Source: Afipia massiliensis
Lineage (GTDB): Bacteria; Pseudomonadota; Alphaproteobacteria; Rhizobiales; Xanthobacteraceae
NCBI RefSeq assembly: GCF_014203115.1
Contig: NZ_JACHIJ010000005.1
Coordinates: 434,001 to 498,000 of the forward strand
DNA length: 64,000 bases
Direction of reading: 5' to 3'
Part shown: positions 8,742 through 60,212 of the stretch, in pieces
Layout of the letters: each line of letters starts with the position of its first letter
Numbering within the stretch: the stretch's first letter is position 1
Position numbers and translations under genes: made by a program
The notes under the pieces: model-generated
What the model was told of the DNA's origin: nothing
The model's input: only the letters and a program-made list of their open reading frames with translations
Databases searched by the model: none

Positions 8742-8742
8742 T

Positions 8743-10085: not shown

Positions 10086-10112
10086 GGGCGCGAGACTCAA
10101 TGTCCCGCGCCC
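10086..10112 (+). terminator. GC-rich stem-loop after binding-protein gene
   Basis: GGGCGCGAGAC and GTCCCGCGCCC pair with one G-U over 11 bases around a 5-base loop, 13 bases after the stop codon. There is no long T run behind it, so it may be a weak terminator or an mRNA-protecting hairpin. Confidence 0.45.
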
Positions 10113-10180
10113 TCTTCGCGTGGAAAATTGATCATCGCGGATATGAAACGATCCCGACCCTGCTCTTCTAGGAGAAGACG

Positions 10181-10918
10181 ATGAACGAATTGGACTACAC
10201 CGGAAAGACCGCGCTCGTCGTCGGAGGATCGAGCGGAATCGGAAATGCAGTTGCGCAATCATTCAGGGAGAGGGGCGCAAATGTGCATGTCTGGGGCACC
10301 AGGCCGCATGCAGCTGACTACGATACCGAAGAAGGTTCCAATCTGGGCGGTCTGAACTACTCGCAGATCGACGTCTCCGATTTCGGAGCCATTGAACAGC
10401 TCAAACCGCCCTTTGATCGGCTCGATATCCTGGTCCTTTCCCAAGGCACCGTTCTATATGGGCGCCGCGAGTTCGAGATGGGCGGATTTCAGAAAATCAT
10501 CGACGTCAATCTCAACAGCCTGATGGCGTGCAGCCTGAAATTTCACGACATGCTGAAGGCCAGCAGCGGATCGCTGATCATCATCAGCTCAATGGCCGCC
10601 TTTCGCTCGACGAAAGGAAATCCCGCTTACAACGCGTCCAAGACCGGCGCATACGGCCTGACCCGCACACTCGGCGAAGCATGGGCGGAGGACAACATCA
10701 GGGTCAACGGAATAGCACCAGGCCTTGTCGATACAAAACTGACCAAGGTGACGACCGCAAATCCGAAGCGGCGCGAAGGCGTCGAACAGAAAGTGCCACT
10801 GAAACGCTTGGGTCGTCCCGAGGACATTGCGGGCGCGGCGCTGTTCCTCGCCTCACCCCTTGCCTCCTATATCATTGGGCAGACCATCATTGTCGACGGC
10901 GGTTTGACGCTCGCCTGA
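10181..10918 (+). CDS. short-chain dehydrogenase/reductase (SDR)
   Basis: Classical SDR of 245 residues with GGSSGIG near residue 16, catalytic Ser in IIISSMA, active-site YNASK and the C-terminal SYIIGQTIIVDGG motif. GGAGAAG lies 6 bases before the ATG. It is downstream of the GntR-controlled binding protein and convergent with the acyl-CoA synthetase gene. In a 4-oxo/4-hydroxyacyl-CoA pathway it could play the role of LvaD (ketoacyl-CoA to hydroxyacyl-CoA) or oxidise a 3-hydroxyacyl intermediate. Role inferred; family certain. Confidence 0.87.
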   Translation: MNELDYTGKTALVVGGSSGIGNAVAQSFRERGANVHVWGTRPHAADYDTEEGSNLGGLNYSQIDVSDFGAIEQLKPPFDRLDILVLSQGTVLYGRREFEMGGFQKIIDVNLNSLMACSLKFHDMLKASSGSLIIISSMAAFRSTKGNPAYNASKTGAYGLTRTLGEAWAEDNIRVNGIAPGLVDTKLTKVTTANPKRREGVEQKVPLKRLGRPEDIAGAALFLASPLASYIIGQTIIVDGGLTLA

Positions 10919-10943
10919 TCGCCATCGCGACCTCAAGCAGGTA

Positions 10944-12593: not shown

Positions 12594-12666
12594 CGCTTTC
12601 TCCCCGCCTCTCAATTTTGGGCATCGGTCGCTGTGTCGCACCCTTTTTGCGCTCACTTATCTCCGA

Positions 12667-13866: not shown

Positions 13867-14984
13867 CAGATTCCTTTCGTCGATCCAGAAGCGATGTCTT
13901 TGGCAAGGAGCAACAGTGCTTCACCAACATGAGCGAAGTCTGCATACCGCGCGTCATTGACAGCGCCATTCAGAAATTGCCGGTGCAATTGCAGGAAAAC
14001 GACGCCCAGCTTGAAGAGAGCAAGAACGCGCATCGCGGGAAGGCCGTCGAGATCGATACCCGTCAGCGCGGCATAGCGCTTCGCCACGTCATCACGGCGC
14101 CAGAACCCCGGCAGCGACGTGGGCATCTGCTTGAGTTGCAACAGGGCGGCGGGATCGTCGGGCTCAACCCAGTAGCTCAGAAGCGTTGCGAGATCGAACA
14201 GCGGGTCCCCCCGTGTGCCCATGTCCCAGTCAACCAGCGCGACCGGTGCAAGCGTCGCCGGATCGAGGATCAAATTATCGAGCTTGAAGTCACAGTGAAG
14301 GATCGTCGGTGGCCGCTCGCGAAAGCGTTGCCGAGCGAGCCAGCCCGAGATGTCATCGACAAGCTTGCGCGCGCCGGTATCACCGACGACGAGCGCTCCC
14401 CTTTTCGACCACCCGGCAATCGCGCGAGCCACGAATCCTTGAGGGCGACCCAAACCATCCAGACCAACGGCTCGCGCATCGACAGCGTGCAACGCGGCCA
14501 GGGTCGACACGAGGGTTTCGCTTAAAATCGCAGAAGCGTTCGCGCAGGACTGGAGCAGCGACATATCGGCTCCGCGCACAACAAGGCCAGGCCGATATTC
14601 GATCAACTGGAACGGTACACCGATGACGCCTTTGTCACCGCAGTAGTGCAGACTTTTCGGAACAAACGACAACGCATGAGACAGGCACGATAGAATGCGA
14701 TGCTCACGGGCCATGTCGTGGGCACCCGGAGGAAGTTCGCCATCGGGCGGACGACGAAAAACCGTCGGCTGACCGTTGATCGTGAGCAGGTAATTGCGAT
14801 TTGCGAGACCACCGGCGAATTGGTGCGCCGATTCTGTCGGATCGAAGCTCATCCCCTGCGCGGAGAGATAGCGCGCCAGCGCCCCCCAATCGCTTGGAGC
14901 AGCGTCCGACGCTGCCAGGAGTTCCCGATTTGCGGTCGATTTCAGGACGCTCATCTGCAAATCGTCCGCGCGTTCGCTGCGCAT
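13866..14984 (-). CDS. APH-family kinase, ACAD10/11 or LvaA-type acyl-CoA phosphotransferase
   Basis: Phosphotransferase of the aminoglycoside/choline kinase fold, 372 residues. The catalytic loop is HCDFKLDNLILD and the metal-binding Asp is in LVDWDMGTRGDPLFDLA. An N-terminal small lobe (FAGGLANRNYLLTINGQ) holds the nucleotide. The frame opens with a TTG at 15017, but that codon lies inside an operator; the ATG at 14984 has AAGGA 10 bases upstream and is preferred. It overlaps the acyl-CoA dehydrogenase by one base. Such kinase-dehydrogenase pairs occur as one protein in ACAD10/11 and as LvaA/LvaC in levulinate catabolism, where the 4-hydroxyl of an acyl-CoA is phosphorylated. Antibiotic resistance is unlikely in this context. 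Confidence 0.85.
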   Translation of the reverse strand: MRSERADDLQMSVLKSTANRELLAASDAAPSDWGALARYLSAQGMSFDPTESAHQFAGGLANRNYLLTINGQPTVFRRPPDGELPPGAHDMAREHRILSCLSHALSFVPKSLHYCGDKGVIGVPFQLIEYRPGLVVRGADMSLLQSCANASAILSETLVSTLAALHAVDARAVGLDGLGRPQGFVARAIAGWSKRGALVVGDTGARKLVDDISGWLARQRFRERPPTILHCDFKLDNLILDPATLAPVALVDWDMGTRGDPLFDLATLLSYWVEPDDPAALLQLKQMPTSLPGFWRRDDVAKRYAALTGIDLDGLPAMRVLALFKLGVVFLQLHRQFLNGAVNDARYADFAHVGEALLLLAKDIASGSTKGI

Positions 14985-15000
14985 GCGAAAGGCATCCTTG

Positions 15001-15023
15001 ATATTATTGTCGTACAATAATAT
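15001..15023. promoter_or_regulatory. GntR operator O3, TTATTGT-CGT-ACAATAA
   Basis: A 23-bp inverted repeat with 10-bp perfect arms and centre CGT, beginning 17 bases before the kinase ATG (minus strand). The arms match O2 (TTATTGT/ACAATAA), but the centre differs from TCCGA. It therefore looks like a variant site for the same regulator, placed to control the kinase-dehydrogenase-synthetase operon. Confidence 0.65.
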
Positions 15024-15089
15024 CTAAATCCGCCCTCAGCCTCCCTGTCAAGGCGCAAAAGTCGCAGGAACTACAGAAGCACCCTATTT

Positions 15090-15102
15090 ATTGTCCGACA
15101 AT
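15090..15102. promoter_or_regulatory. GntR operator O4, ATTGTCCGACAAT
   Basis: A perfect 13-bp palindrome identical in its core to O1 and O2, 85 bp centre-to-centre upstream of O3 on the path to the kinase operon. Two sites about eight helical turns apart would allow looping or cooperative binding. Confidence 0.7.
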
Positions 15103-15225
15103 TTTCGGTTGGGATGACCCACAGCGTTCCCGCGACACCCCTGAACTGACAGTCGCGACGCTTAGGCCCATAGGATTCCAACCGCGAGCTGAAACCCCTC
15201 AGGACCTGCCGTGCAACGAGCCCAT

Positions 15226-16395
15226 CTAGCGCGCGGGCTCAAGAATCGAGACGTAGTTCGCGACCGCCGCGCCGCCCATATTAAAAATGCCCGCAAGCTG
15301 AGGATTCTTCAGCTGCATCCCCTCAGGTGCCTGGCCGGTGAGCTGCATCGCGCTCATCACGTGCATGGACACCCCGGTTGCACCGATCGGGTGCCCCTTT
15401 GCCTTCAGTCCACCGGACGGATTGATCGGCAGCTTGCCGCCAATTTGCGTCCAGCCTTCCTTGATCGCGCGCGCACCCTGCCCCTTCGGCGTCAACCCCA
15501 TTGCTTCGTACTCGATCAGTTCGGCGATTGTGAAACAGTCGTGGGTTTCCACGAAGGATAGATCCGACAGTCCGACACCAGCGGACTGCAATGCGCGCGC
15601 CCAGACCACAGAGCAGCCTTCGAAATCAATGATGTTACGCTTCGACATCGGCAGAAAATCCTGTGCATGCGCTGTTGCCTTGAAGGACACCGCCTTGCGC
15701 ATTGTCTTTGCAGTCTCTGCATCAGTCATCACCAGCGCCGCCGCGCCATCGGACACCAGCGAACAGTCCGTGCGCTTCAGCGGTCCGGCCACGAATGGGT
15801 TCTTCTCGCCTTCCGAACGGCAGTATTCGAAACCGAGATCCTTGCGCATCTGGGCATATGGATTGGCTACGCCGTTCTTGTGGTTTTTCGCGGCGATCAT
15901 CGCCAACGCATCGGACTGATCGCCATAACGCTGGAAGTACTGCTCGGCGATCTTGCCAAATACGCCCGCAAATCCTCCAGCGATCTCACCGTCTTCGGGC
16001 AGGTACGACGCTCGCAGCAGATTGCGGCCGACCTCGAGACCTGGCGTTCGGCTCATCTGCTCAACGCCAACCACCAGAACAACACGGGCAGCGCCCGCCT
16101 GAATTGTCTTGATGGCCTGATGAACCGCCGCCGATCCGGTCGCGCAAGCATTTTCGACACGTGTGGCGGGCTTGAATCGTAACGCGGGGTCCGCCTGCAG
16201 CACCAGTGCAGCGGTAAAATCCTGCGGCGAGAATCCCGCGTTGAAATGCCCGAGTATGATTTCATCGACGTCACCAGGCGCGATGCCCGCATCGACCAAC
16301 GCATCGGTCGAAACGCGAACAATCAGGCTTTCGATAGTTTCCGCGTCCATTTTCCCAAATGGCGTATGCGCCCAACCGACAATCGATGCCGTCAT
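15226..16395 (-). CDS. thiolase, SCP-2/acetyl-CoA acetyltransferase-like
   Basis: Thiolase-fold enzyme of 389 residues. The nucleophilic Cys is in VENACATGSAAVH, followed by VGVEQMSRTPG; then THDCFTIAE and the C-terminal GGLKAKGHPIGATG with the second active-site His. A longer frame starts at 16449, but the ATG at 16395 has GGGGAA 6 bases upstream and gives the expected N-terminus (TASIVGWAHTPFGK). It would cleave a 3-ketoacyl-CoA as the last step of the pathway. The gene lies upstream of the kinase operon on the same strand, with operators O3 and O4 in the gap, so the units are probably separate. The thiolase's own control site is not visible. Confidence 0.9.
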   Translation of the reverse strand: MTASIVGWAHTPFGKMDAETIESLIVRVSTDALVDAGIAPGDVDEIILGHFNAGFSPQDFTAALVLQADPALRFKPATRVENACATGSAAVHQAIKTIQAGAARVVLVVGVEQMSRTPGLEVGRNLLRASYLPEDGEIAGGFAGVFGKIAEQYFQRYGDQSDALAMIAAKNHKNGVANPYAQMRKDLGFEYCRSEGEKNPFVAGPLKRTDCSLVSDGAAALVMTDAETAKTMRKAVSFKATAHAQDFLPMSKRNIIDFEGCSVVWARALQSAGVGLSDLSFVETHDCFTIAELIEYEAMGLTPKGQGARAIKEGWTQIGGKLPINPSGGLKAKGHPIGATGVSMHVMSAMQLTGQAPEGMQLKNPQLAGIFNMGGAAVANYVSILEPAR

Positions 16396-47370: not shown

Positions 47371-47418
47371 GGTAGCGAGAGAGGGACTCGAACCCCCGAC
47401 CCCAGGATTATGATGAGC
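47371..47418 (-). tRNA. 3' fragment of a tRNA (probably Met, CAT), attachment-site remnant
   Basis: On the minus strand the sequence reads from an anticodon loop with CATAA through the variable loop, a T-arm with GGTTCGAGTCC, an acceptor strand TCTCGCT, A and CCA. The 5' half (D-arm and 5' acceptor) is missing. tRNA 3' ends are standard targets of tyrosine integrases, and an integrase gene starts 165 bases away, so this is most likely one arm of an integration site. No second copy was found in the window. Confidence 0.75.
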
Positions 47419-47582
47419 CGCCTTTTATGGTCTAGGAGCCTCACTGGATCATACCGTGACGTTTTTTCCCCGAAAAACGGGGAGACTTCACTCCTTGAGG
47501 CTGCAATCCGGTCCGAATTCTTGGTTTCGCTGGCACGAGCGTGGTACGATTGCCGCGAAATTCCAATTCCAAGGATTCAATT

Positions 47583-49097
47583 GTGGCCGCTAACAAGCTT
47601 TCCACGAGGTGCGACCTGACCGCCAAGGTCGTCGAGGAGGCCATTGCACTGGCGCTCGCGGGCAAAACCCCGCGCTACGATTATTGCGACAACAGTCAGC
47701 CCTACTTCGTGCTGCGGGTCCGGGGTCATTCCTTGTCCTGGTTGGTCAAGACGCGGGATAACAGCATCAAGATCGGCAACGCCATGCCTCCTCAGCATCG
47801 CAAGCGCCTGCCGGAGCGGCGCATGCGGGCGAGCAAGGTGGGCGATGAGGACCTCGGACTGCGGGAGGCCACCAGGAGGGCCAAGATCGAATGGGCCAAG
47901 CTGGGCAACCAGGTCGCCGCGCTGGAAGAGAGGCAGTGCTGGACCTGGGACCAACTCGTCGAAGCCTATAAGACGTATATCTCGGGCATGCGCGAGGACG
48001 CCCGGGGTCAGCCTATCTACCCATCAAAGGAGACCAAAAGCGACGTCAGGCTGATCTTTGCCCGTCCCGAGGTCGCCAAACACGCAACCAGGCTCCTCAA
48101 CAACCTGGATGAGCACTGGTTCGAGGATGTTCAGGAGGCTCTCCATAACGCACATGGCTACGACGCTTACCGGAAGTTCCGGAGCTACGGCCGCGCGGCG
48201 CTGAATTGGGCCCAGAAATTCAAACGCAAGGAGAGCGGCCTGGACGGCCGACAATGGTGGAAGCTGGCTGAGGAGCGGAGGCGCACCTCAAAGGAAGTCG
48301 AAAAGAAGCTCGTCCGGACCAAGGAGCTCAAGAAGAAGAAGTCCGACTTCAGGGTCGAGCATCTCGGCAAGCTTCTGGCCCAGCATGAGCGCTTCTGTCT
48401 TGCACGCTTCGGCAATGAGCGCATTTCGCCCGGTGTGCGATGGGGCTTATGGTGGGACTGCCTGACCGGACATCGGCGGGGATCCGGTACGTGGATTGCT
48501 TACGACGATATCGTCTTCGAGGACCCTCGCCTTCCGAAAGGCTGGGGACTGGCGACTTGGCAGCCGGAAGTCATGAAAACACAGAACGCCTTTACTCTTC
48601 CGATCCCACCGCTCGGACTTCATATCATCCGCTGCTGCCGACGGGATGTGGATACAGCGACCGCTCGCATCGTCAAGAACCTCAAAAGTCCATGGATCTT
48701 CACTTCGAGGGTGCTTCAATCCGATGCGGGCATCATCCCCGCATCAGGCTCCGGCCTCGCGAACCACATTCGAAATATGCGCGGTCAGCGTGCTAAACAT
48801 GGCGGCAATCATCGAGATATTCTCAAGGGCATCCCGCCATTCAGCATGCACATTGTCCGCTCCACGATGGGAGATTATATCCTTGATGAAACAGATCTCC
48901 CTCGAGGCGTGGCCTCGCTCATCATCGCCCATGAAATTGCGGGCGACCACAGGTCAGAAATGGACCGCGTTGGCGATACGGGAAAACGTTGGTACTTCCA
49001 GGCGCAGCGCATCCCCGAAAAGACCAAAGGAATGGAGCTGTGGTCGAAAGCCCTTCTAGAGGCTTTCGATAACGCAGGAGGCATCTATCCGACGTGA
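47583..49097 (+). CDS. tyrosine recombinase / island integrase
   Basis: Site-specific recombinase of 504 residues. Catalytic residues visible: Arg286 in GVRWGLWWD, His423 and Arg426 in HIVRSTMGD, a later His in GDHRSEMDRVGD and Tyr471 in RWYFQAQR. An N-terminal arm and a basic helical core domain (KEVEKKLVRTKELKKKKSDF) precede the catalytic domain. GTG at 47583 is chosen because AAGGA lies 7 bases before it; a GTG at 47541 is also in frame. It is oriented away from the tRNA fragment and probably inserted the accessory genes that follow. Confidence 0.88.
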   Translation: MAANKLSTRCDLTAKVVEEAIALALAGKTPRYDYCDNSQPYFVLRVRGHSLSWLVKTRDNSIKIGNAMPPQHRKRLPERRMRASKVGDEDLGLREATRRAKIEWAKLGNQVAALEERQCWTWDQLVEAYKTYISGMREDARGQPIYPSKETKSDVRLIFARPEVAKHATRLLNNLDEHWFEDVQEALHNAHGYDAYRKFRSYGRAALNWAQKFKRKESGLDGRQWWKLAEERRRTSKEVEKKLVRTKELKKKKSDFRVEHLGKLLAQHERFCLARFGNERISPGVRWGLWWDCLTGHRRGSGTWIAYDDIVFEDPRLPKGWGLATWQPEVMKTQNAFTLPIPPLGLHIIRCCRRDVDTATARIVKNLKSPWIFTSRVLQSDAGIIPASGSGLANHIRNMRGQRAKHGGNHRDILKGIPPFSMHIVRSTMGDYILDETDLPRGVASLIIAHEIAGDHRSEMDRVGDTGKRWYFQAQRIPEKTKGMELWSKALLEAFDNAGGIYPT

Positions 49098-49486: not shown

Positions 49487-49798
49487 GCGGAGCAGATACG
49501 CCGGCGTTGTAGGCGAACGCGCCGACTACTTCCGATTGGCATCAGCCGCGAGACTACGCACCTAGGCGACGTGGTGATGCGCCTGTTCACGAGCCACAAG
49601 CAGCGCGCACCACATTCCGATAGGCCGCCGATCTGCACGTAGCTGCGTTGATCACCTCCACGCGAATCCTTGCCCCTAATCGGGGTAGCGGGAGCTTTTG
49701 AATCATGCCAAGGTTGGTGTGGCATGCTCCTACGTCGACTTGTCCGAAGACGCGTCAAGGATTCGACAGGAGCCGTGCCCAAACCTAAGTCCTTTCCG
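49487..49798. other. gap between the two small XRE genes
   Basis: No credible gene. The frame of XRE copy B extends back to 49670 (with possible starts at 49724 and 49775), so the true 5' end of that gene could reach into this stretch. Confidence 0.4.
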
Positions 49799-50029
49799 AT
49801 GCGAAAAGCAGGCGATGATATCGTCAAAGATACTTTCGGCCGAAAGGTAAGAGAACTTCGGCTTTCCTTGAGCATGTCCCAGGCAGATTTGGCAGATAGG
49901 ACGGAGACCCGTCAGGCGTTCATCAGTGAGATTGAGCGAGGAGAAGCCAACCCGACGCTCGACTCGATCCTGCGGATCGCAACAGCCTTGGGTGTTGAGG
50001 TGGTCGAGCTTTTTGACTCACGTCAATGA
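49799..50029 (+). CDS. small XRE-family regulator, copy B
   Basis: A 76-residue HTH_3 protein from the ATG at 49799: FGRKVRELRLSLSMSQADLA, RQAFISEIERGEANPTLDSI, VEVVELFDSRQ. The start is not fixed by a clear ribosome site; GTG 49775 (AGGAG upstream) or ATG 49724 would add 8 or 25 residues. It is a paralogue of copy A. The next segment holds direct repeats that either could bind. Confidence 0.8.
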   Translation: MRKAGDDIVKDTFGRKVRELRLSLSMSQADLADRTETRQAFISEIERGEANPTLDSILRIATALGVEVVELFDSRQ

Positions 50030-50123: not shown

Positions 50124-50179
50124 CTATACGTTATATCGCATAACATGACTGCGAATTAGTATAACATGAGTGCGAATTA
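50124..50179. repeat. direct 19-bp repeats and CTATACG motif before the island operon
   Basis: ATAACATGACTGCGAATTA at 50140-50158 and ATAACATGAGTGCGAATTA at 50161-50179 differ by one base and are offset by 21 bp, two helical turns. CTATACG lies just upstream at 50124-50130. This stretch is AT-rich compared with its surroundings. It looks like a tandem operator, or less likely iterons. No gene lies between 50030 and 50500. Confidence 0.6.
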
Positions 50180-50500: not shown

Positions 50501-51094
50501 ATGCGCATCTCTCAACTTCGCCGTCAGACTGTCGTCCCGTCCTTCTTCGCGAGCTCCAAATGCAAGATTGCGATTCCCCTACGCAACGTCCTTCTCCGCG
50601 ACGCGCTCCAGCAAGCGAGCCTTGAGTCTTCGGTTCGGGCGATCAGCTATCGGAAGGCTACGCACTTACAAGGCTCGCCGGTCGCGCTTATAGGCGTGGT
50701 GATAGAAAGAGTGGACGGGAATTTTCTTCTCGCGGTTTGCGAGACGCGACCGAAGCGTAGCGACGAGGAACTCTCTCGCCTGGCAGAAGCGCTCGAAAGC
50801 AGCGGACTACGCTTGCTCGAACGGGACGCTCACGATATCAGACGTGAACCCTTGTTCTCCAACGCGCGCACAGTCTGGTCGTATGAGCGCTATCATGTCC
50901 CACTCAAGGACAGGCTCAAGATCGCAGCGGCGCTCAGCGAAGACGGACCGCAATCGATCATCGAGTTGGAAGAGCGTGCTCGTCCTACCTGCGATATCCT
51001 CGCTGCAGTTTGCGCTCTGGCTTGCGAGGACCTGGTGCGGCTCAACATCGACGATGCCCCCTTAAGCCCGAGCACCATTGTGCTCGGAGGATAG
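50501..51094 (+). CDS. hypothetical protein, distant TnsA-like fold possible
   Basis: A 197-residue cytoplasmic protein. N-terminal half: KCKIAIPLRNVLLRDALQQA and a beta-rich VALIGVVIERVDGNFLLAVC, with ETRP after it; then a helix and LRLLERDAHDIRREPLFSNA. C-terminal half: a winged-helix-like RLKIAAALSEDGPQSIIELE and CALACEDLVRLNIDD. The layout (strand pair, E-T-R after the last strand, a helix, then a helical DNA-binding part) resembles TnsA-type endonuclease subunits, but a convincing D-E-K active site is not seen. AGGA lies 10 bases before the ATG. It precedes the six-gene operon by 85 bases. Confidence 0.55.
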   Translation: MRISQLRRQTVVPSFFASSKCKIAIPLRNVLLRDALQQASLESSVRAISYRKATHLQGSPVALIGVVIERVDGNFLLAVCETRPKRSDEELSRLAEALESSGLRLLERDAHDIRREPLFSNARTVWSYERYHVPLKDRLKIAAALSEDGPQSIIELEERARPTCDILAAVCALACEDLVRLNIDDAPLSPSTIVLGG

Positions 51095-51179
51095 GAAATC
51101 TGACCGCGTGTACTGGTGCGAGCTATTCGCGCGGGCTGGTTTCGCGAACGACGTTCGCTGATTTGGCATGAGGCGTATG

Positions 51180-51725
51180 ATGGCAGATATAGTGCGCGAT
51201 TGGCGGACCGAGCTGGTCGAGGCTTACCCCGACCTTTTTCACCCGCCGGTGGGTGACCCAGGTGCCGCCCAGGGATCGCCGGAATGCGGCGAAGGGTGGT
51301 GCGACCTGCTAGAGCGCGCCTTTGCTCGCATCCGGACTGCGGTCCAGGCCGACGGCGGCTCGTTGAAGGTCGCGCAGATCAAGGAAAAGTACGGGACGCT
51401 GAGGCTGTACTGGCAAGGCAGCTTGTCACCCGAGGCCCGCGCCCAGGTCGCAGAGGCCGTCGATTTGGCGGAAGCCCGCTCTGCTTGCACGTGCGAGCTT
51501 TGTGGCGAAAACGGGCGGTTGTACGGCCCGGACTGGCTGACGACGCGCTGCATGACCCACGCCCGGGGACGTCCCGTCGAGAGACCACCAGGCTTCGAAA
51601 ACATTCACCTCATGCAACGCATCGTAGACGGTCGGCTTCGAACCGTCGCGTGTCGCCGCTACGACAGGGCGTCGGACCGCTTCATCGACGTCGACCCGGC
51701 CTCTTTGGGGATCGAGGAAGAGTGA
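51180..51725 (+). CDS. island operon gene 1: Cys-motif protein, paralogue of gene 2
   Basis: A 181-residue protein beginning MADIVRDWRTELVEAYPDLF, with GWCDLLERAF, an alpha-beta stretch VAQIKEKYGTLRLYW and the motif SACTCELCG, followed by TRCMTHARG. Two CxC/xxC cysteines plus a later Cys and His suggest a structural zinc site. The ATG at 51180 aligns exactly with the start of gene 2 and has GAGG before it; the frame's first ATG is at 51168. It ends one base before gene 2. Function unknown; I know it only as an accessory-genome type. Confidence 0.75.
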   Translation: MADIVRDWRTELVEAYPDLFHPPVGDPGAAQGSPECGEGWCDLLERAFARIRTAVQADGGSLKVAQIKEKYGTLRLYWQGSLSPEARAQVAEAVDLAEARSACTCELCGENGRLYGPDWLTTRCMTHARGRPVERPPGFENIHLMQRIVDGRLRTVACRRYDRASDRFIDVDPASLGIEEE

Positions 51726-51726
51726 G

Positions 51727-52260
51727 ATGGCGCAAATCGTCAACGACTGGCGCCTCGACTTCATGCGAGCGCACCCTCGCCTGTTCGACGTCATGCCCGG
51801 CGAGCCGGAGCATTCCTTCGGCTACCCGCTCTGCAACGAGGGCTGGCGCGAAGTACTGGAGAATCTCTGCATCAGAATCGAAGCCGTGTTGCAGCAGGGC
51901 GAGACATTTGCGTTTGTCCGCATCAAACAGAAGATGGGCATCCTCCGCGTCGACTGGGATGGCGGAATCTCCGACGAGACCGAGATCCGGGTCGTTGAGG
52001 CCGTCGATCTTGCGACGGCGCGTTCAGCCTGTACCTGCGAAATCTGCGGTATCGAAGGGACGCTTTACAGCAACCGCGAATGGCTTGCGACGAGGTGTAG
52101 TCGACACGCTACGGGCGATCCGGTCCCGCGACGGCCTGGCTTCGAGAATGTCCACCTCTTGCGCCGGAGACCAAGTGGGTCGGACATGTACCACGCGCGG
52201 TACGACCGGGACACCGACACATTGACCGAGATTGAGCCGCCGTCGGACTCGGATGAATAG
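51727..52260 (+). CDS. island operon gene 2: Cys-motif protein, paralogue of gene 1
   Basis: A 177-residue protein beginning MAQIVNDWRLDFMRAHPRLF, then NEGWREVLENL, FVRIKQKMGILRVDW and SACTCEICG, with LATRCSRHATGDPVPRRPGF. It shares with gene 1 the start, GW-x-x-(L/V)LE, the Cys motif, the TRC..HA.G.PV.R.PGFEN.HL block and an acidic C-terminus. The two are tandem duplicates kept in the same order and frame pattern, which suggests a heteromer or divergent targets. It ends 3 bases before the next gene. Confidence 0.75.
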   Translation: MAQIVNDWRLDFMRAHPRLFDVMPGEPEHSFGYPLCNEGWREVLENLCIRIEAVLQQGETFAFVRIKQKMGILRVDWDGGISDETEIRVVEAVDLATARSACTCEICGIEGTLYSNREWLATRCSRHATGDPVPRRPGFENVHLLRRRPSGSDMYHARYDRDTDTLTEIEPPSDSDE

Positions 52261-52263
52261 GCG

Positions 52264-52431
52264 ATGTCCAGATTTCGCTACCACGGCCGCGGCCGGGGAG
52301 GCACGTTCGTCTACAACGGTCGGCACGCCTGTCCGAACTGCGGCTCGCCGGATGTGCAGTTTGCCTTGGGCATTGAAGAACTGTCGGACGATGACCCACT
52401 CATAGATGCCTTGAAGCGGCTGACCGAATAA
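52264..52431 (+). CDS. island operon gene 3: 55-residue zinc-ribbon protein
   Basis: A short gene starting 3 bases after gene 2. It encodes MSRFRYHGRGRGGTFVYNGR, HACPNCGSPDVQFALGI and an acidic helix to KRLTE. The CPNCG pair and upstream His are a half zinc ribbon. The tight spacing and intact frame support translation. It could be a small adaptor of the neighbouring enzymes. Confidence 0.6.
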   Translation: MSRFRYHGRGRGGTFVYNGRHACPNCGSPDVQFALGIEELSDDDPLIDALKRLTE

Positions 52432-52451
52432 GACGACAAGAAGGACGGGGA

Positions 52452-53240
52452 GTGAAGGCAGTGTTGCTGTGGATCCTCTCAGACCTCCACATCGAGTTGA
52501 CCCGCGGCTGGGACCTGCCGCCGCCACGCGAGCGTCCCCGCTTCGATATCATGGTCGTCGCAGGCGATCTGATTCCGAGAATGGAGCGAGGCGTGCGCTG
52601 GCTGCTCGAGCGAGTAGCCGATCAACAGGTAATCTATGTCGCAGGAAACCACGAGTTTTATGGGGCGGACATCGATCGAACCGTCGAAAAGGCTCGCCAA
52701 ACCGCGGCTGGCACCAACGTCCGAATCCTTCAGAATGAAAGCGCAATGATCGACAACGTTTTCTTTCTAGGCGCAACGCTTTGGACGGATTTCGAGTTGT
52801 TCGGCAATCGTGACTACGCGATGAACTCCGCGGCCAGCGTCATGAACGACTATCGCAAAATCAGGAAGAACTCCTACAGAGAGCGCCTCCGTCCGACCGA
52901 TACCCTCAGCCGGCATTTTGACTCCCGCGAATTCATCGCGCGCTCTGTCCGCGAAATAGATGCGCGACGCAAGGTCGTGGTCTCGCACCATGGTTGCGTC
53001 CGTGAAGCCATCCGGACGGGCATGGAACACGATATAATATCTGCCGCTTACGTGAGCGACTGCTCCGAACTCCTGCACGGGGTAGATCTCTGGATCTATG
53101 GCCACACCCACGAGCGCCGCGAGTTCACGATCGGCGGCACGCGCATCGTTAGCAATGCGAAGGGATACGGTCCTTGGTTGCCGAGTCAGCGCAGTTGGGA
53201 CAACCCACTCTTTGATCCAAATTTGGTTGTCGAAATCTGA
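52452..53240 (+). CDS. island operon gene 4: metallophosphoesterase
   Basis: Calcineurin-like phosphoesterase of 262 residues. All metal motifs are intact: SDLHIE, VVAGDLI, YVAGNHEFYG, VVSHHG and YGHTHE. GTG start with AAGGA seven bases upstream, 20 bases after gene 3. Members of this fold cleave phosphodiesters, nucleotides or serve as phosphatases; the length and GNHEFYG version fit the general cytoplasmic branch and not the Mre11 nuclease. Substrate unknown. Confidence 0.85.
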   Translation: MKAVLLWILSDLHIELTRGWDLPPPRERPRFDIMVVAGDLIPRMERGVRWLLERVADQQVIYVAGNHEFYGADIDRTVEKARQTAAGTNVRILQNESAMIDNVFFLGATLWTDFELFGNRDYAMNSAASVMNDYRKIRKNSYRERLRPTDTLSRHFDSREFIARSVREIDARRKVVVSHHGCVREAIRTGMEHDIISAAYVSDCSELLHGVDLWIYGHTHERREFTIGGTRIVSNAKGYGPWLPSQRSWDNPLFDPNLVVEI

Positions 53241-53256
53241 TGGTGGAGTGCGAGGC

Positions 53257-55341
53257 ATGGACTCGCAGAAGTTTCCGACCGATCTCCTCGCGAGGGCTTA
53301 CCTCGACATGTTAGCCACGGAAGCTGGAACAAACAGCAGTCCGCTCTTACGCAGCGGCAATCCCGACGATCCGATCGAGAGATTAATTGATGATTTGTCG
53401 AGGCCCCCAGAGTCCGCAGGTCGGACATCGATACGAGCCGACCTTGCAGCTGCTGCAGTCTTGGTCGCCCGCGCGATTGAGTCAGTAAACGGACTCACCC
53501 GCGATCTGCGCCGAGGCTGTCCTGTCGTGTCGCTCGCCACCCATAGAGCCGAGGTGGTCTCCCTGGTTAAGCAGGTTCTAGAAGCCTGCGCTTTTGGCTC
53601 TGAAGCAAAAGTGCTCGATGAACGAACCTTCGATCGCGGCTACACGCATCCCGTATTGCTGCTGGCCAGAGACGGCACCTCCAAGGACGCCAAGGCGGAA
53701 CGAGGAAATGACACCGTTGCAAGCGCGCTGCACGCCCGCGCGCCGATCTTCGGCATTGCACCTGATCCGCGTCGTCATCTGGCGCGCGATCTCCTTCGGG
53801 CGGCGGAACACCATCTTTCCCTGAGTCAGCTCGATGCCTCCGCCATCGCGCTGGTGATCGAAGCCGTCACAGGAAGGCCTCCCAGCCTAACAGTGGACGA
53901 GCAGCTCGTCCGAGCCGTCGATATTTCAGACCTCGCGCTGTCGGTTCGATCGGATCGTACGGCAGATGATTGTATCAAGCGGCTCGAAAGGATCGTCTCT
54001 ACAAAATCTTTCTTTGACCATCGTGGTCCAAGCTTAGAGGAGCTTGCCGGCTACGGCGAAGCGCGCGAATGGGGGCTCAATCTTGTTGCCGATCTGCGTG
54101 AGTACCGAGCGGGCCGCCTTGATTGGGAATGTATGGAAAAGGGCTTACTCTTGGCTGGAGCACCTGGCGTAGGTAAGACGCAATTTGCGCGCGCGGTCGC
54201 AAAGTCTTCAAATGTGCCCCTCGTAGCAACGTCTGTCGCCGATTGGAACGCGTCCGCCTATCTTTCGGGTACATTGACCGCGATCAAAGAGTCGTTCTCG
54301 CGGGCACAACAACTCGCGCCCTGTATATTGTTTATCGACGAATTGGACGGAATATCGGATCGGGCAACACTAACCTCCGACTACAGGGAGTATTGGACAC
54401 AGATCGTCAATCTTCTCCTGGAGCAATTAGCTGGCGTCGAAGATCGCCCCGGCGTGGTCGTGATCGGAGCAACAAATCACCCCGACCATATCGATCCCGC
54501 AATACGGCGCGCAGGACGTCTCGATCGAACGATCGAAATCGAGCTACCTGACGCCGAGAACCTGGCGGCGATCTTCCGCTTTCATCTCGGGGAAGACGTC
54601 CTGCCCAAAGTCGATTTGATGCCGGCCGCCCTCGCGGCGTTAGGTAAAACCGGTGCCGATATTGAGGCGTGGGTCCGACGGGCGAAGTCACGTGCCCGCC
54701 GCGCCAAACAAGACCTCGTCTTCGGCGATCTCCTTCACGAGATCCGATCTGGGCGGGAAGGGTTGCCGGAAAGCTTGAGGCGGACCTGTTCCGTCCACGA
54801 AGCCGGGCACCTCATCGTAGGCGTCGCTTTGGCTGTGTTCGAGCCTCAGGCGTTGACGTTACTCGATGATGGCGGCGCCACGCGCGTCGAACTTTCGCGA
54901 GCCAACTCGCAAACTCAGAACGGCATTGAAAACTTCATCACTGCGCTTCTTAGCGGTCGCGCCTCCGAAGAAATCATCCTCGGCTCTTCGCAGGCAACGG
55001 CAGGGGCTGGCATTGGAGAGCAGAGCGATTTTTCGAGAGCCACTGCCGCGGCGATCGACCTGGAACTTCGTTTCGGCTTCGGAGTGATTGGTCTGGCGCG
55101 GTTTTCGGATCGTGCCACCGAGATGTTACTGCAGGACCCCTCCATCGTGAGCCTGATCACGAAACGCTTAGATCGCTGCCATACGCGGGCACGCGAACTC
55201 ATCGCTGCGAATCGGCAGACAGTCGAAGCCGTGGCACGCCTTTTGGAACAGACGGGGTATCTGGATCGAGCCGCCATTGACGAACTCTTGAAAAGGTATC
55301 CGGTGCGAAATGTGGCGACAGATAACGGGGCGCTCAAATGA
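53257..55341 (+). CDS. island operon gene 5: soluble FtsH-like AAA metalloprotease
   Basis: A 694-residue ATP-dependent protease. Walker A GAPGVGKT at about residues 301-308, Walker B FIDELDG with Asp361-Glu362, second region of homology ATNHPDHIDPAIRRAGRLDR, then an M41 peptidase domain with HEAGH at 514-518 and a likely third zinc ligand Asp591 in QSDFSRATAAA. The arginine finger pair R-R-A-G-R is kept. FtsH's two N-terminal membrane helices are missing; residues 1-300 are a unique soluble domain (for example ARSDRTADD-like charged helices). The longer frame from 53098 overlaps gene 4 and is rejected. Confidence 0.87.
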   Translation: MDSQKFPTDLLARAYLDMLATEAGTNSSPLLRSGNPDDPIERLIDDLSRPPESAGRTSIRADLAAAAVLVARAIESVNGLTRDLRRGCPVVSLATHRAEVVSLVKQVLEACAFGSEAKVLDERTFDRGYTHPVLLLARDGTSKDAKAERGNDTVASALHARAPIFGIAPDPRRHLARDLLRAAEHHLSLSQLDASAIALVIEAVTGRPPSLTVDEQLVRAVDISDLALSVRSDRTADDCIKRLERIVSTKSFFDHRGPSLEELAGYGEAREWGLNLVADLREYRAGRLDWECMEKGLLLAGAPGVGKTQFARAVAKSSNVPLVATSVADWNASAYLSGTLTAIKESFSRAQQLAPCILFIDELDGISDRATLTSDYREYWTQIVNLLLEQLAGVEDRPGVVVIGATNHPDHIDPAIRRAGRLDRTIEIELPDAENLAAIFRFHLGEDVLPKVDLMPAALAALGKTGADIEAWVRRAKSRARRAKQDLVFGDLLHEIRSGREGLPESLRRTCSVHEAGHLIVGVALAVFEPQALTLLDDGGATRVELSRANSQTQNGIENFITALLSGRASEEIILGSSQATAGAGIGEQSDFSRATAAAIDLELRFGFGVIGLARFSDRATEMLLQDPSIVSLITKRLDRCHTRARELIAANRQTVEAVARLLEQTGYLDRAAIDELLKRYPVRNVATDNGALK

Positions 55342-55610
55342 TCAAGGTGACGATCGAAATCATCCCTGGCGGCTACGCTGAGGGCCGGCGCACGATCGGG
55401 CTCATGCATATCGCCAATATCTCTGATCTTGCGCGGCGGAGCGATTACCGGGTCGATTTCACGGAAGGAAACAATCCCCTAACCGGTATGAAGTCGTTCA
55501 CCAGAACCGTTTACGTGCGCGATCATGATCGTAACCAGAGCGTCTGGTCGCTAATTGAGAAGGCCATCGCCGCGGGGAAGGATGCGGGGTTCGGCCGCGG
55601 CTCGAGATAG
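55338..55610 (+). CDS. island operon gene 6: small partner overlapping the protease gene
   Basis: A 90-residue protein whose ATG overlaps the protease stop by 4 bases (ATGA), so the two are translationally coupled. It opens with a beta strand, MIKVTIEIIPGGYAEGRRTI, continues GLMHIANISDLARRSDYRVD and ends in a helix SVWSLIEKAIAAGKDAGFG. It has the look of a small alpha-beta adaptor or substrate tag. No family recognised. Confidence 0.7.
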   Translation: MIKVTIEIIPGGYAEGRRTIGLMHIANISDLARRSDYRVDFTEGNNPLTGMKSFTRTVYVRDHDRNQSVWSLIEKAIAAGKDAGFGRGSR

Positions 55611-55752: not shown

Positions 55753-57099
55753 CTATCTACGGCGGCCTGTCGAAGGCAATTCTTCGAGATCATCTGTCGC
55801 TATCGTCGGATCATTCAGGTCGTAGCCGAAGCCTTCGTAGACAAAAGCGCTACGGATAAGCTCGCAGTCTCTTTCACTGACGCCAGCCTTGCGAGTTGTC
55901 GGGTACCAAGAGGCGCTGATGGCGTCGATCATGCTGTTGATGATGATCGTCGCTTCCTCTTTTGAGACAAGAAACCGCTCGCACTGGGAAAGCAAATTGG
56001 TGCGATTGGCATATCGGCCCCAATCTCCGAACGTCATCGCTAGATCGCGGCGCTCCATGGCGATCATGGGATTGGGTGTCAGATCGTAAGCTGGCGACAA
56101 TGACCAAGCCGCATCCTTTGCGATGATCGCGTGATTCCGTGGATGATCGTCGGTGTTCGAGATAAGCGCGTTGAAACACACACGACGGAAGAGTTCCGGA
56201 AGATCCTTGCCCTGACTTGCTGTTGCGGCACGCCGTATTTCATCGGCGAGCAATAGATAGGACCATTTCCCACGCTTGTCCGCATCGTTGGGCGAGTCGT
56301 CTGCATCGACTAGGGTCAAGGCGCTCGCCATACGGCTGCGTAAATAACCTCGTTCGGTTTTGTGGCGGTCGAACCGCTTCACCAAAAGCACGTCCCGATC
56401 ACCGACCGTTGTTAATTGGCTTTCTGCGCAAGAAATTCCGCAATCGCGCGCCAGCGTCAACATAGCGTGTTCGACACGCGGATTATTCCAACGGTCGTCG
56501 CGATGCGTAAATTTGGCAAGCCAGAGCGAATTGTCGTCCTCAACGGTTGCTTTTGGGCGGGCGCCGCCCATAGAGGTTCCAGCGTTAAGAAGAGCTTCTG
56601 CCTGCTCTGCATCCGCGCCTGCAGGCTTCGGAGCGTCTGGATCTTTCTCTGCGGCCACGATTTGATCGGCAAGTTCGATCAGTTTTGCCAAGTCGAGCGT
56701 TCGATTAAATTTCCGCACAGGTGCCGGCGGTTCGGCGTTAAGCCCAAATCCCAAAGCGCCGGCGCGGTCATCCGGCGAGTTGAGTAAGTACTGGATTTCC
56801 GTCGGCTCGACGTTACCTAGCCGTTTCTCGATTAATTTCCGTCCCCACGCGTCGGGAGAACTGTCGCGTAGCGCGCCGAAATTGCCGCGTAGTTTCGTCG
56901 TGCGGAAGGCCGGCACCTGAAGCTTGAGTTCGACTGGGTCGAATTCGACTCGGTCATTTCGCGAAAGATAGCTTCGGCCATAAACGAATTGGCCAACCGC
57001 AGTTCCTTGGCGATTTGTGTCCAGTTGGTATTTGCCTGCGGTTACAGGTTCAGTCTGTCCGGGCAATGTAATGTAGACGAAGCATTCTTCAGAAGGCAT
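55753..57099 (-). CDS. hipA: HipA-family serine/threonine kinase toxin
   Basis: Toxin kinase of 448 residues. The N-terminal subdomain (GQFVYGRSYLSR, LRDSSPDAWGRKLIEKR) leads to the P-loop-like GTSMGGARPKA, the catalytic loop NTDDHPRNHAI and the metal-binding SPAYDLTPNP. The family phosphorylates aminoacyl-tRNA synthetases or other translation targets and induces dormancy. GGAGGG lies 7 bases before the ATG at 57099; the longer frame is rejected. It overlaps the antitoxin gene by 11 bases. Confidence 0.9.
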   Translation of the reverse strand: MPSEECFVYITLPGQTEPVTAGKYQLDTNRQGTAVGQFVYGRSYLSRNDRVEFDPVELKLQVPAFRTTKLRGNFGALRDSSPDAWGRKLIEKRLGNVEPTEIQYLLNSPDDRAGALGFGLNAEPPAPVRKFNRTLDLAKLIELADQIVAAEKDPDAPKPAGADAEQAEALLNAGTSMGGARPKATVEDDNSLWLAKFTHRDDRWNNPRVEHAMLTLARDCGISCAESQLTTVGDRDVLLVKRFDRHKTERGYLRSRMASALTLVDADDSPNDADKRGKWSYLLLADEIRRAATASQGKDLPELFRRVCFNALISNTDDHPRNHAIIAKDAAWSLSPAYDLTPNPMIAMERRDLAMTFGDWGRYANRTNLLSQCERFLVSKEEATIIINSMIDAISASWYPTTRKAGVSERDCELIRSAFVYEGFGYDLNDPTIATDDLEELPSTGRRR

Positions 57100-57430
57100 T
57101 GCTGGGCCCTCCTCCGCTTCGCGCGCGCTCGCGCTCGTCGAGACCGCTGAGGGCGAGGCCCTCTTCGTCAGCCTTTGGATCGGCAACGCTTTCGAGAGAC
57201 GAAAGCAGGTTCATAGCCCAAAGCATGCCGACGTAGACGCCAACGCTTGTGCCTAGTTTCCCATTCTCCGCATCGGTCAAGACATGCCTGTCCACGCCGA
57301 GTTTGGCCGCGAGGTCGACAAGGCTCAGGTTGCGCCGAAGTCGTGCGGTACGAAGGTTGTTGCCCAAGGACTTCAGGGCATCTTGGACAGCAAACGGCGG
57401 AGCATTTGTAAGTGCGCTACGAGGTGGCAT
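57089..57430 (-). CDS. hipB: HipB-like XRE antitoxin
   Basis: A 113-residue HTH_3 protein: NNLRTARLRRNLSLVDLAAK, RHVLTDAENGKLGTSVGVYV, then a C-terminal acidic tail that could plug HipA. It is encoded upstream of hipA in the usual order. Three 16-bp direct repeats lie just before its start codon and are its likely operators. The longer C-terminus than E. coli HipB (88 residues) is common in alphaproteobacteria. Confidence 0.87.
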   Translation of the reverse strand: MPPRSALTNAPPFAVQDALKSLGNNLRTARLRRNLSLVDLAAKLGVDRHVLTDAENGKLGTSVGVYVGMLWAMNLLSSLESVADPKADEEGLALSGLDERERARSGGGPSNAF

Positions 57431-58097: not shown

Positions 58098-58655
58098 ATG
58101 TCTGTCTCTAATAGGAGGCTGGCTTCCATATCGAACGATCAAAGACCACGCCCGTCTGAAGCAGCAAAGGTGCTTCCGCGCCTCGACAAGTCACGTTTTG
58201 CGTCGGCCAACCGACGGCGGCTCAGCGCTCCTGCTTTGCGTACTTTCCTCGCCATTGCGGATCTATGGGGGTTGACTGGAGAGCAACGTCTCCTGATCCT
58301 CGGCTATCCGTCTCGATCCACCTATCACAAGTGGTGCAAGCAGGCCCGAGAGCACGGCGACCTTACTCTCGATGTCGACGTCCTCACACGAATTTCCACA
58401 GTACTCGGGATCCATCGGGGTCTCGGAATTCTGTTCCCAACGGAGCAACTTGGCGTCGAGTGGCTGCGAACCCCGCACAACGCCATCATCTTCGGCAGGC
58501 GACCGCCCATACATCTGGCGACCAGCGGTTCACAGGACGGATTGCTCACGGTGCGGCGCTTTCTCGCCAGCGCCCTTGGCGGTCTCTACATGCAGCCGAA
58601 CACTATTGACGAGGCGTTTATGTCTTACGACGACGCGGAAATCGTCTTTCGGTAA
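58098..58655 (+). CDS. MbcA/ParS/Xre-type antitoxin, no toxin gene beside it
   Basis: A 185-residue protein: a basic N-terminus, an HTH-like segment RTFLAIADLWGLTGEQRLLI and GYPSRSTYHKW, then the MbcA/ParS/Xre toxin-binding domain TRISTVLGIHRGLGILFP and WLRTPHNAIIFGRRPPIHLA. These antitoxins normally precede a RES-domain NAD-degrading toxin gene. The following 387 bases encode no such protein, so it is an orphan, or the toxin was lost. Confidence 0.8.
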   Translation: MSVSNRRLASISNDQRPRPSEAAKVLPRLDKSRFASANRRRLSAPALRTFLAIADLWGLTGEQRLLILGYPSRSTYHKWCKQAREHGDLTLDVDVLTRISTVLGIHRGLGILFPTEQLGVEWLRTPHNAIIFGRRPPIHLATSGSQDGLLTVRRFLASALGGLYMQPNTIDEAFMSYDDAEIVFR

Positions 58656-59042
58656 CGAGCGCTTTTACACACTTGCCACGTCGTCTGCCCCCGTCGCAGC
58701 GGAGACGGCTGCGACTGCAACAGGCAAAAACTGGAGTTGGCAGATCAGCGCCGAGCATAACGTCTGAGCGATCCTGATTCGAACCGCCGATGGGACCGTA
58801 TAGCCTGCTCGCTACGAATCAACACTGGATGAAATATGCTCGCGTTCCAGTTTTCGGCATCGCCCTCACGCGGGGAATGCGAGAGCGGCGGACTGGCGTG
58901 AACGGCAGGCGCGGCATTTGTTCGCGTTGCGATTTGCTCGATGCCATCCCAGCCCGCCCCTATAACTATAGACCAATCCAGAAGGATTGAAGACGCCAGC
59001 GCCAGCGAGTATGGTTCTTGCGGGCAATGGGGAAGTGGGCTG
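58656..59042. other. gap where a RES toxin gene would be expected
   Basis: Short overlapping frames only, none with RES-domain motifs. The protease gene frame extends back to 58941 but its signal peptide starts at 59043. Confidence 0.4.
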
Positions 59043-60212
59043 ATGAAACGCTGGCGCATCGCAGCGATTTTTGGGCTGTGTTTTTTTGGCGGTTGGAACG
59101 ACTTAGCGAACGCCCAATCCAAACTGAATTTCGATGAGAAAATTGCCGCGCTTGACGCGTGGACCGTCGGCTATAACCGCGCGAGTGGCAGTTGTTTGAC
59201 AACTGCCACTTACGGCGATGAAACCACGGTTTGGATAGGTCTGGACGATGATGAAGTTTATCTAGCCCTAACGAACCCCAACTGGCAGTCCATTCAGGAA
59301 GGCAAGCAGTACCGCATTCGTATCGCTTCGCTTGCTGGCACCCGTTGGCAGGGCAATTTTTACGGCATAAGCCGAAGTCAAGAAAAGGGAGTGATTTCGG
59401 GTGGTCTCAAAGAAGAGTTCGTCAAAGAAGTAATCCGAACCCCCGGAATTGCGGTCTATCTCGGATCGACCCTTATAGCGAAACTCAATCTCGATGGATC
59501 GCCGGCCGCATTTGGCGCGATGTTGGACTGTCATTCGAGTCGAAACCCCGGCTCGTCGCAAAAAGCAGGTAGGAGCGTTGGCAAGGTCGTCAGCAGCGGC
59601 ACCGGCTTTATTGTTTCCCAGCAAGGCCACATCCTTACCAACAACCATGTCGTGGAATCCTGTGGCAACTTAGCGATCGAACGAGCTGGACATTCAAGAG
59701 TCCACGGCACAGCACTCGCTAGAGACAAGGCAAACGATCTGGCGGTTCTCAAAACCGGCATCAAACCCGAAAATGTCACCTCCCTAAGAACTAATCTGCG
59801 GGTTGGCGAAAATATCGCAGTATATGGCTTTCCTTTATCTAGCCGGTTGGCAACCACCGGCAACTTCACAGTCGGATACGTCAGCGCCCTCGCCGGGTTA
59901 GGTGACGATAGTTCAAAGTTTCAAATCTCAGCACCAATCCAGCCGGGCAACAGCGGCGGTCCTGTGCTTGACCACTACGGAAACGCGGTTGGCGTGATCG
60001 TTTCTACTGCCACATCTGCGATAATTGCCGACCGCTCAGGCGTCGCTCCTCAGAATATCAACTTCGCAATAAAAGCGAACATCGCAAGGAGCTTTCTTGA
60101 TGCAAACGGCATTCAGGCCGACAGCCCACCCCAAACCGCTAAAATCTATGAATTCGCGGATTTGGCCGAGAGAGCAAAGCTAACCACCGTTAAAATTCTT
60201 TGTGAAAAATAG
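59043..60212 (+). CDS. exported trypsin-like serine protease (S1C, HtrA-like)
   Basis: Periplasmic protease of 389 residues. The signal peptide (RIAAIFGLCFFGGWNDLANAQ) is followed by a unique N-terminal domain of about 140 residues with two Cys, then a chymotrypsin-fold domain: SGTGFIVSQQGHILTNNHVV, catalytic His in NNHVVE, Asp in KANDLAVLK and Ser in QPGNSGGPVLD. No PDZ domain follows, so it is a short DegP relative. A TTG-led small gene follows after 9 bases. Confidence 0.87.
   Translation: MKRWRIAAIFGLCFFGGWNDLANAQSKLNFDEKIAALDAWTVGYNRASGSCLTTATYGDETTVWIGLDDDEVYLALTNPNWQSIQEGKQYRIRIASLAGTRWQGNFYGISRSQEKGVISGGLKEEFVKEVIRTPGIAVYLGSTLIAKLNLDGSPAAFGAMLDCHSSRNPGSSQKAGRSVGKVVSSGTGFIVSQQGHILTNNHVVESCGNLAIERAGHSRVHGTALARDKANDLAVLKTGIKPENVTSLRTNLRVGENIAVYGFPLSSRLATTGNFTVGYVSALAGLGDDSSKFQISAPIQPGNSGGPVLDHYGNAVGVIVSTATSAIIADRSGVAPQNINFAIKANIARSFLDANGIQADSPPQTAKIYEFADLAERAKLTTVKILCEK

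Follow-up and report, generated by a model that had tools for sequence, protein, structure and literature searches.

The subject of this report is a compact operon at positions 50501 to 55610 of the window, the 64,000-nucleotide stretch of the Afipia massiliensis genome that was analysed (contig NZ_JACHIJ010000005.1), and in particular its gene for an FtsH-like protease, here named PROT. This protease recurs as the constant part of a mobile module with changing partners, for which a defence role is tentatively favoured below. The initial annotation had described six genes on one strand with spacings of 1, 3, 20, 16 and -4 bases, and these coordinates agree exactly; as a "six-gene operon", however, the description falls short by one, because a seventh gene, g0, begins the operon 85 bases upstream of CYS1. 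Gene starts and gene clusters were assigned mechanically. The operon consists of:

50501 to 51094, + strand: g0, a TnsA-like paralogue, from a profile-profile match to TnsA
51180 to 51725, + strand: CYS1, a Cys-motif protein, modelled with a predicted local distance difference test (pLDDT) score of 90
51727 to 52260, + strand: CYS2, a paralogue of CYS1 by sequence comparison
52264 to 52431, + strand: a zinc-ribbon-like CxxC protein of 55 amino acids (aa), with sub-threshold Pfam matches only
52452 to 53240, + strand: MPE, a calcineurin-like metallophosphoesterase (Pfam Metallophos, 7.4e-12; phrog_1649, 9.3e-41)
53257 to 55341, + strand: PROT, a non-membrane AAA+-M41 metalloprotease of 694 aa (Pfam AAA, 6.3e-32; Peptidase_M41, 8.7e-11)
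55338 to 55610, + strand: g6, 90 aa, overlapping PROT by 4 bases and found directly 3' of PROT in 12 of 81 loci

The ratio of nonsynonymous to synonymous substitution rates (dN/dS) was 0.12–0.16 for PROT, 0.14–0.18 for MPE, 0.15–0.41 for g6, 0.18–0.48 for the Cys proteins, 0.30 for g0 and 0.38 for the zinc ribbon; dS was computable in 14 of 17 pairwise comparisons, and the values are rough in five of these, where it exceeded 1. With ratios between 0.12 and 0.48, the operon genes are under constraint and not chance frames.

The module sits on a tRNA island behind a putative integrase, and the following features lie upstream of the operon:

47371 to 47402, no strand assigned: a 3' fragment of tRNA-Met(CAT) of at least 32 bases, probable attachment site and left island end, from an exact copy in the intact tRNA-Met
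47541 to 49097, + strand: putative integrase, from its position and C-terminal HxxR...Y; kept with the module in loci L033 and L034
49253 to 49486, + strand: XRE regulator 1 (Pfam HTH_3, 2.4e-14)
49670 to 50029, + strand: XRE regulator 2 (Pfam HTH_3, 5.5e-14), its true start possibly further in
50140 to 50179, no strand assigned: direct repeat ATAACATGANTGCGAATTA in two 19-base copies (50140–50158 and 50161–50179), a candidate operator from reading of the sequence

The intact tRNA-Met holding the exact copy of the fragment is located on another contig of the same genome. Similarity to the two relatives L033 and L034 begins at 47370, and their flanks differ. The integrase that the initial annotation had placed here stands as a putative tyrosine recombinase by its position and its HxxR...Y-like C-terminus, which we take to be the tyrosine recombinase motif; a family assignment did not follow, as nothing was matched in Pfam, NCBIfam, PADLOC, PHROGs or among PDB sequences. 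The two XRE regulators were borne out by their HTH_3 matches, and the proposed repeat operators are indeed present as two copies upstream of the operon, with a candidate role as operators.

PROT had been described as a soluble AAA/M41 protease, and both domains were found while a membrane segment was not, by hydropathy. No N-terminal membrane anchor was apparent by this measure, the best 19-residue mean in residues 1–255 being 1.38 as compared to 2.68 in the window genome's own FtsH; among 75 homologues, two reached 2.0 or more in the first 300 residues and 26 reached 1.6 or more. PROT resembles FtsH/HflB in having AAA fused to Peptidase_M41, in its HExxH and in the best PDB match of its predicted structure (pLDDT 91), which is FtsH 2ce7 (E 3.9e-26). 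It differs in lacking the membrane segment, in its N-domain and in its score against the NCBIfam FtsH equivalog model, 175.5 bits where the cut-off is 600 bits. An alignment of 57 homologues (18 of the 75 listed references were left out) placed the catalytic residues among the invariant columns, which we take to be Walker A, Walker B, arginine-finger candidates, HExxH and the third zinc ligand, and the HExxH pattern is present in 78 of 81 PROT calls. PROT thus has intact ATPase and zinc-protease residues. In the VIA comparison, three of 50 rows (ranks 24, 42 and 50) pair residues 13–500 with the tandem AAA domains of p97 and Rix7, a hint that the N-domain could be a degenerate (second) AAA domain.

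The distribution of PROT is patchy. At E <= 1e-100 it was detected in 66 of 391 genomes of the family (profile A1) and in 16 of 398 genomes of the phylum (profile A6), all 16 within the class of the window; it was also sought in 151 relatives. A contig scan with profile A1 kept 80 of 279 relatives, most of them apparently ordinary FtsH by coverage, and only L081, L082, L083 and L085 were used. Genes were called by a codon-bias script in 82 loci, of which 81 hold PROT (L050 was dropped, having no PROT call); the locus of the window itself is among the 81, as are near-identical ones (e.g., L033, L183 and L184). Around PROT the partners vary: MPE, g0, paired CYS genes, the zinc ribbon, g6, a DUF6634-like gene, a 3'-5' exonuclease and a GIY-YIG-like/HNH-like gene. 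Within six genes on the strand of PROT, MPE occurs in 39 of 81 loci (in 37 of these 39 within two genes), g0 in 30, TnsA-like and TnsB-like genes in 25 each, c5 in 24, TnsC-like genes in 22, EXO and DUF6634-like genes in 17 each, CYS in 13 and g6 in 12, always at the next position. CYS and MPE lie together upstream of PROT in nine loci, and the zinc ribbon with MPE in six, including the window's own and its near-copy L033. An opposite-strand XRE or ribbon-helix-helix (RHH)-like gene is located up to seven genes upstream of PROT in 33 of 81 loci; the RHH-like and GIY-YIG-like names are labels that we assigned.

Gene order also recurs in other islands, as CYS-CYS-zinc ribbon-MPE-PROT. L195 has CYS-CYS-zinc ribbon-MPE-(48 aa)-PROT, and L196 and L199 have CYS-CYS-(169 aa)-zinc ribbon-MPE-g0-PROT followed by Tns genes, with an extra XRE-like call ahead of g0 in L199. 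The position of g0 varies from first in the window operon to adjoining PROT in L196 and L199, and g6 is absent there. The initial annotation had named two outcomes that would speak against its proposal, a gene order not conserved elsewhere or genes that each belong to an unrelated housekeeping family; with the order shared between islands, that objection fails. In L034 (8338–10800), a natural deletion has left a single open frame of 820 aa, in which PROT is joined to the zinc ribbon and to roughly 60 residues from the start of MPE.

Among the partners, g0 matched the TnsA of Tn7-like loci with a profile-profile probability of 99% (E 4.5e-18), where the next-best pair among 14 families reached 47%; nuclease residues were not recognisable by eye in the g0/TnsA alignment. 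CYS1 and CYS2 are 46–47% identical, in line with the tandem Cys-motif paralogues of the initial annotation. A Foldseek search with the predicted CYS model returned no PDB match at E <= 0.001, and the CYS1 model resembles five viral models at this threshold (one annotated as thymidine kinase, two uncharacterised, two unnamed). At the Pfam threshold, no family was assigned to g6, g0 or the zinc ribbon. The claimed phosphoesterase is supported by both the Pfam and the PHROGs matches of MPE.

The module is mobile, being carried by Tn7-like transposons, a tRNA island, plasmids and other elements. TnsA- and TnsB-like clusters occur at 25 of 81 PROT loci and TnsC-like genes at 22; in one Tns set, Pfam TniB and TniQ scored above cut-off, and rve and Mu-transpos_C just below. 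A TnsB search found 69 places in 391 genomes, and the best 42 of these (E <= 3.2e-93) were examined, leaving out 27 weaker ones. In 28 of the 42, a same-strand PROT is located no more than 5.5 kb upstream (23 already in hand and 5 of 19 newly fetched), a share biased upward by a profile built from PROT-linked TnsB, and some of the 28 are fragmentary or split (e.g., L186, L188, L254, L266 and L268). Among the 14 loci without PROT by this rule, one has PROT 11 kb away, one a weak fragment and two other module genes. The 44 TnsB loci, 25 of them fetched through PROT, contain 33 PROT calls, every one of which lies upstream of TnsB in the same orientation; the TnsB set excludes L270 (a duplicate of L212) and TnsB calls shorter than 380 aa. 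Outside the family, a Tns set stands beside PROT in four of 18 loci (downstream on the same strand in L276, L278 and L282, divergent in L279), L277 has a divergent set several genes off, and two more loci have a single Tns-like gene. Bosea sp. F3-2 plasmid pB32-2 is a named case of PROT with a Tn7-like set; a gene resembling Xre/MbcA/ParS-type antitoxins is also annotated beside that set.

On the PROT tree, from which six PROT calls shorter than 550 aa were left out, 16 changes are required to explain the Tns label, no fewer than 13 of them forced, as compared to a shuffled mean of 19.9 (13 of 500 shuffles were as low). For the PROT label on the TnsB tree the number is 11, near its shuffled mean of 12.1. 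The partnership has thus been formed anew many times, for the most part in one geometry. Loci L193 and L197 illustrate an exchange: their PROT DNA is 90% identical, the similarity ends 19 bases before the PROT stop, and their TnsB proteins fall on different branches. The Tns genes lie 251–2021 bp from PROT, forming one tight run with it in only one of 81 loci.

The module most likely lies inside the Tn7-like element, as judged from the sequences of L255 and L199. The PROT-less L255 was delimited at 6880–16349 as TGTAAATG...CATTTACA, a 9.5-kb element with a 5-bp duplication (TCACC), two transposase-type sites per end and 3.2 kb upstream of tnsA within it. Its ends emerged when it was set against 19 further loci that represent this site in the genus, the right flank being found in all and the left flank in 16, and it is the only locus with both ends resolved. 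L199 occupies the same host site and has the same end type behind tniQ, and the left host flank was not found in the 29 kb upstream, which holds the PROT module. Contrary to this placement, the Tns DNA that L197 and L257 have in common starts only some 440 bp past PROT, and weak end pairs lie between PROT and tnsA in L201 and L220 (14 of 26 bases, four of five of the duplication). Searches for inverted repeats and repeat clusters in seven extended loci and L197 gave no convincing transposon ends. The same-strand succession of PROT and tnsA might also reflect insertion of Tn7-like elements behind PROT. PROT as such a Tn7 attachment site is not favoured: the PROT-tnsA gap yielded no convincing repeat family or end pair, L255 holds 3.2 kb upstream of tnsA, and the arrangement in L279 is divergent; the observations on L197, L257, L201 and L220 still leave it some probability.

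Carriers of other kinds were also observed. L194 (6872–14643, genome G268) is an IS1595-like element of 7.8 kb with inverted ends of about 24 bp and a 10-bp duplication; besides a distant PROT it holds a transposase-like gene and one encoding 709 aa, and it splits a phosphatase-like host gene. Among 72,556 plasmid records, 29 match PROT at E <= 1e-50, and in three the match spans 80% or more of the query. Two integrase clusters occur near other PROT loci, for the most part downstream, and their representatives match phage integrases. The window genome itself has no TnsB at E <= 1e-60 (two candidates were scored, and the search there covered TnsB), and looking through the window for transposase sites of one known type gave no match. 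The module resembles Tn7-like systems in adjoining tnsA, in its TnsA-like g0 and in having a delimited, PROT-less relative with a 5-bp duplication, and the window copy differs from them in the missing TnsB and transposase sites.

To evaluate the genomic context, we compared 75 neighbours drawn at random from 453 candidates (72 loci, within 9.5 kb, module genes and eight near-copies or overlapping loci excluded) with 75 of 86 control genes from six genomes, taken 20–40 kb downstream and unmatched for mobility. At 1e-10 the neighbours match 136 PADLOC models and the controls four, namely mad3 (4 members), AriA (2), mad8 (2) and ATPase-Toprim (1). The neighbour matches include HerA (6.3e-297), pAgo (5.6e-209), TIR-PNTD, a CBASS cyclase (8.4e-182), NucC (2e-108), a type II methylase and CARF6; among the 25 of 136 models listed, each was matched by one neighbour. 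As these counts are of families and not of distinct proteins, they indicate several systems and no rate: by sequence match, CBASS with NucC, Argonaute, TIR-PNTD, HerA, a methylase and CARF6 lie near PROT. Six of the 29 plasmid neighbourhoods were inspected. PROT and a metallophosphoesterase lie near IetAS and KwaB on a Rhizobium acidisoli plasmid and a few genes from a HamAB (Hachiman) pair on R. leguminosarum pRL1 (L316, 1–2882); the two are also near two annotated TIR proteins on a Methylorubrum extorquens CM4 plasmid, and the others have a helicase-methylase pair (Azospirillum), conjugation genes (Bradyrhizobium) and the Tn7-like set (Bosea). Tn7-like transposons bear defence cargo, according to PMC8649781.

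Taken from the sequences, the reading we place first, with somewhat less than even confidence, is a mobile anti-phage or anti-mobile-element module in which the AAA+ protease could act as effector or regulator. It is ranked first because PROT with the phosphoesterase is also found near defence systems that have no recognised recombinase close by, and it fits the neighbours and the swapping of nuclease partners. In such a module, a regulator would hold expression of the operon low. On invasion, the N-terminal domain of PROT (perhaps the degenerate second AAA) and small adaptors such as CYS and g6 would direct the protease to a phage or host protein for unfolding and degradation, while the phosphoesterase or a variable nuclease could attack nucleic acid or a nucleotide signal. 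IetAS, one of the closest known systems, is likewise an AAA+ ATPase plus a protease on mobile DNA, and the PADLOC IetA model matches the AAA part of PROT (9.9e-27). In IetAS, however, the AAA protein stands apart from the protease, a serine enzyme of the S8 family, whereas in PROT an M41 domain is fused to the AAA; the IetA match is confined to the AAA part, no IetS match was found in the window operon, and IetAS occurs near the R. acidisoli PROT locus as a system of its own.

Several observations weigh against a defence function. It explains neither the place of PROT beside tnsA nor the presence of the TnsA-like g0, and three of 81 PROT calls have no HExxH (some are possibly fragments). The same 75 neighbours appear mostly metabolic or housekeeping in Pfam, going by 25 listed of 52 families at 1e-8, with HipA and SMODS among the 25. 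Mobile islands are defence-rich anyway, and the six control genomes were unmatched in this respect. One of the two M. extorquens TIR proteins and a CHAT protein were scanned and had no PADLOC match. No PADLOC-DB 2023 model covers a whole operon protein; below 1e-5, matches are limited to the AAA part of PROT (IetA, TRIP13) and residues 6–115 of MPE (PDC-S10, 3.9e-10). In the close relative L034 the two CYS genes and the greater part of MPE are gone; PROT and g6 are kept, and PROT remains under selection. Finally, MPE is not exclusive to PROT: its profile matches 24 places in 151 relatives (E <= 1e-40), of which the seven beside PROT are all rows of the profile itself and none of the other 17 adjoins a PROT detected in those relatives, and MPE was rejected as a PROT-specific marker. 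The proposal of a defence or stress module in the initial annotation is thus partly supported: for defence the support comes from the neighbourhood, which also contains many metabolic genes, and HipBA, cited there in its favour, is incidental.

A less likely alternative, to which we give about half that credence, is that PROT (with g0) acts on the recombination of its own carrier, by degrading an XRE/RHH-like repressor in the manner of ImmA or by dismantling the finished transposition complex. It arises from the Tn7-like linkage and the TnsA-like g0, neither of which the initial annotation had noted. This explanation fits the tnsA position found in 28 of 42 TnsB loci and the uniform geometry of the 33 PROT calls, the TnsA-like g0, the regulators, the phage integrases near other PROT loci and the many gains or losses of Tns adjacency on the PROT tree. 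However, no recombinase could be recognised within seven genes of PROT at many loci, 14 of 42 TnsB loci have no PROT by the rule used, and the Tns genes are set off from PROT and divergent in L279, while the exchange between L193 and L197 argues against tight co-adaptation. By analogy, the ImmR-ImmA switch of ICEBs1 is likewise an island-borne combination of an XRE-type regulator and a protease bearing HExxH; ImmA is a small protein that is not driven by ATP. A second possible precedent is host ClpX, which is reported to aid transposition by a CRISPR-associated transposon (CAST), raising insertion by the wild-type transposase, and is hypothesised to take apart the post-transposition complex (PMC12326709). 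By analogy, ClpX, a host factor of Mu and CAST, and PROT could both be viewed as AAA+ unfoldases that go with a DDE transposase; the gene for ClpX belongs to the host, and PROT is a fused metalloprotease carried by the element itself.

A narrower version, which we consider rather doubtful and advance by analogy, is that a large group of alphaproteobacterial Tn7-like transposons encode their own transpososome-remodelling machine, in which a cytosolic FtsH-like protease and a TnsA-like pseudonuclease adaptor beside tnsA would license or end transposition, and the window copy would be an escaped unit on a tRNA island. We know of no other transposon-borne remodelling protease. If control of transposition is true, PROT would be the first known to us and useful for CAST engineering, and if defence is true, proteolysis by an ATP-driven zinc protease would be added to the known effector types.

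In either case the module is probably undescribed as a defence or element-control system. Among the literature matches listed, none names a non-membrane protease of FtsH type that forms the constant part of such a module, and none ties a soluble FtsH-like/M41 protease to Tn7-like elements or defence, an absence that is weak as subscription papers fall outside the coverage. The passages available from PMC10293859 name no such protease, a word search of the main text of PMC8649781 gave no instance of protease, FtsH, peptidase or metallophosph-, and no papers were found on DUF6634.

It is improbable that the genes form an ordinary host stress or protein-quality module riding on islands. The enzyme is of FtsH type with conserved catalytic residues, as this explanation would have it, but it occurs patchily, in 66 of 391 genomes of the family and 16 of 398 of the phylum, the window's genome encodes an FtsH besides, and the identifiable carriers are mobile elements. 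Least probable of all is a toxin-antitoxin-like or addiction set that stabilises its carrier, with MPE or a nuclease as poison and the protease or CYS as control: small paired genes, the regulators, nearby HipBA and an Xre/MbcA antitoxin-like gene recall such sets, but searches of Pfam, NCBIfam, PADLOC and PHROGs returned no toxin family for any of the operon genes, L034 kept PROT and g6 after losing most of MPE and both CYS genes, and HipBA is not conserved with the module.

Downstream of the operon, the HipBA pair that had been noted as a neighbour is real (HipA_C, 5.3e-47) and lies at 55753–57430 on the opposite strand. It is shared by the near-identical L033 and absent from L034 (genome G020), which is without that 2.2 kb; as a partner of the module it was rejected on this ground, and it represents a separate insertion or loss. 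The Xre/MbcA/ParS-type antitoxin-like gene is located at 58098–58655, and similar genes occur within six genes of PROT in six of 81 loci. A gene for a trypsin-like serine protease (58941–60212; Pfam Trypsin_2, 4.6e-25) follows, inside or beside the island.

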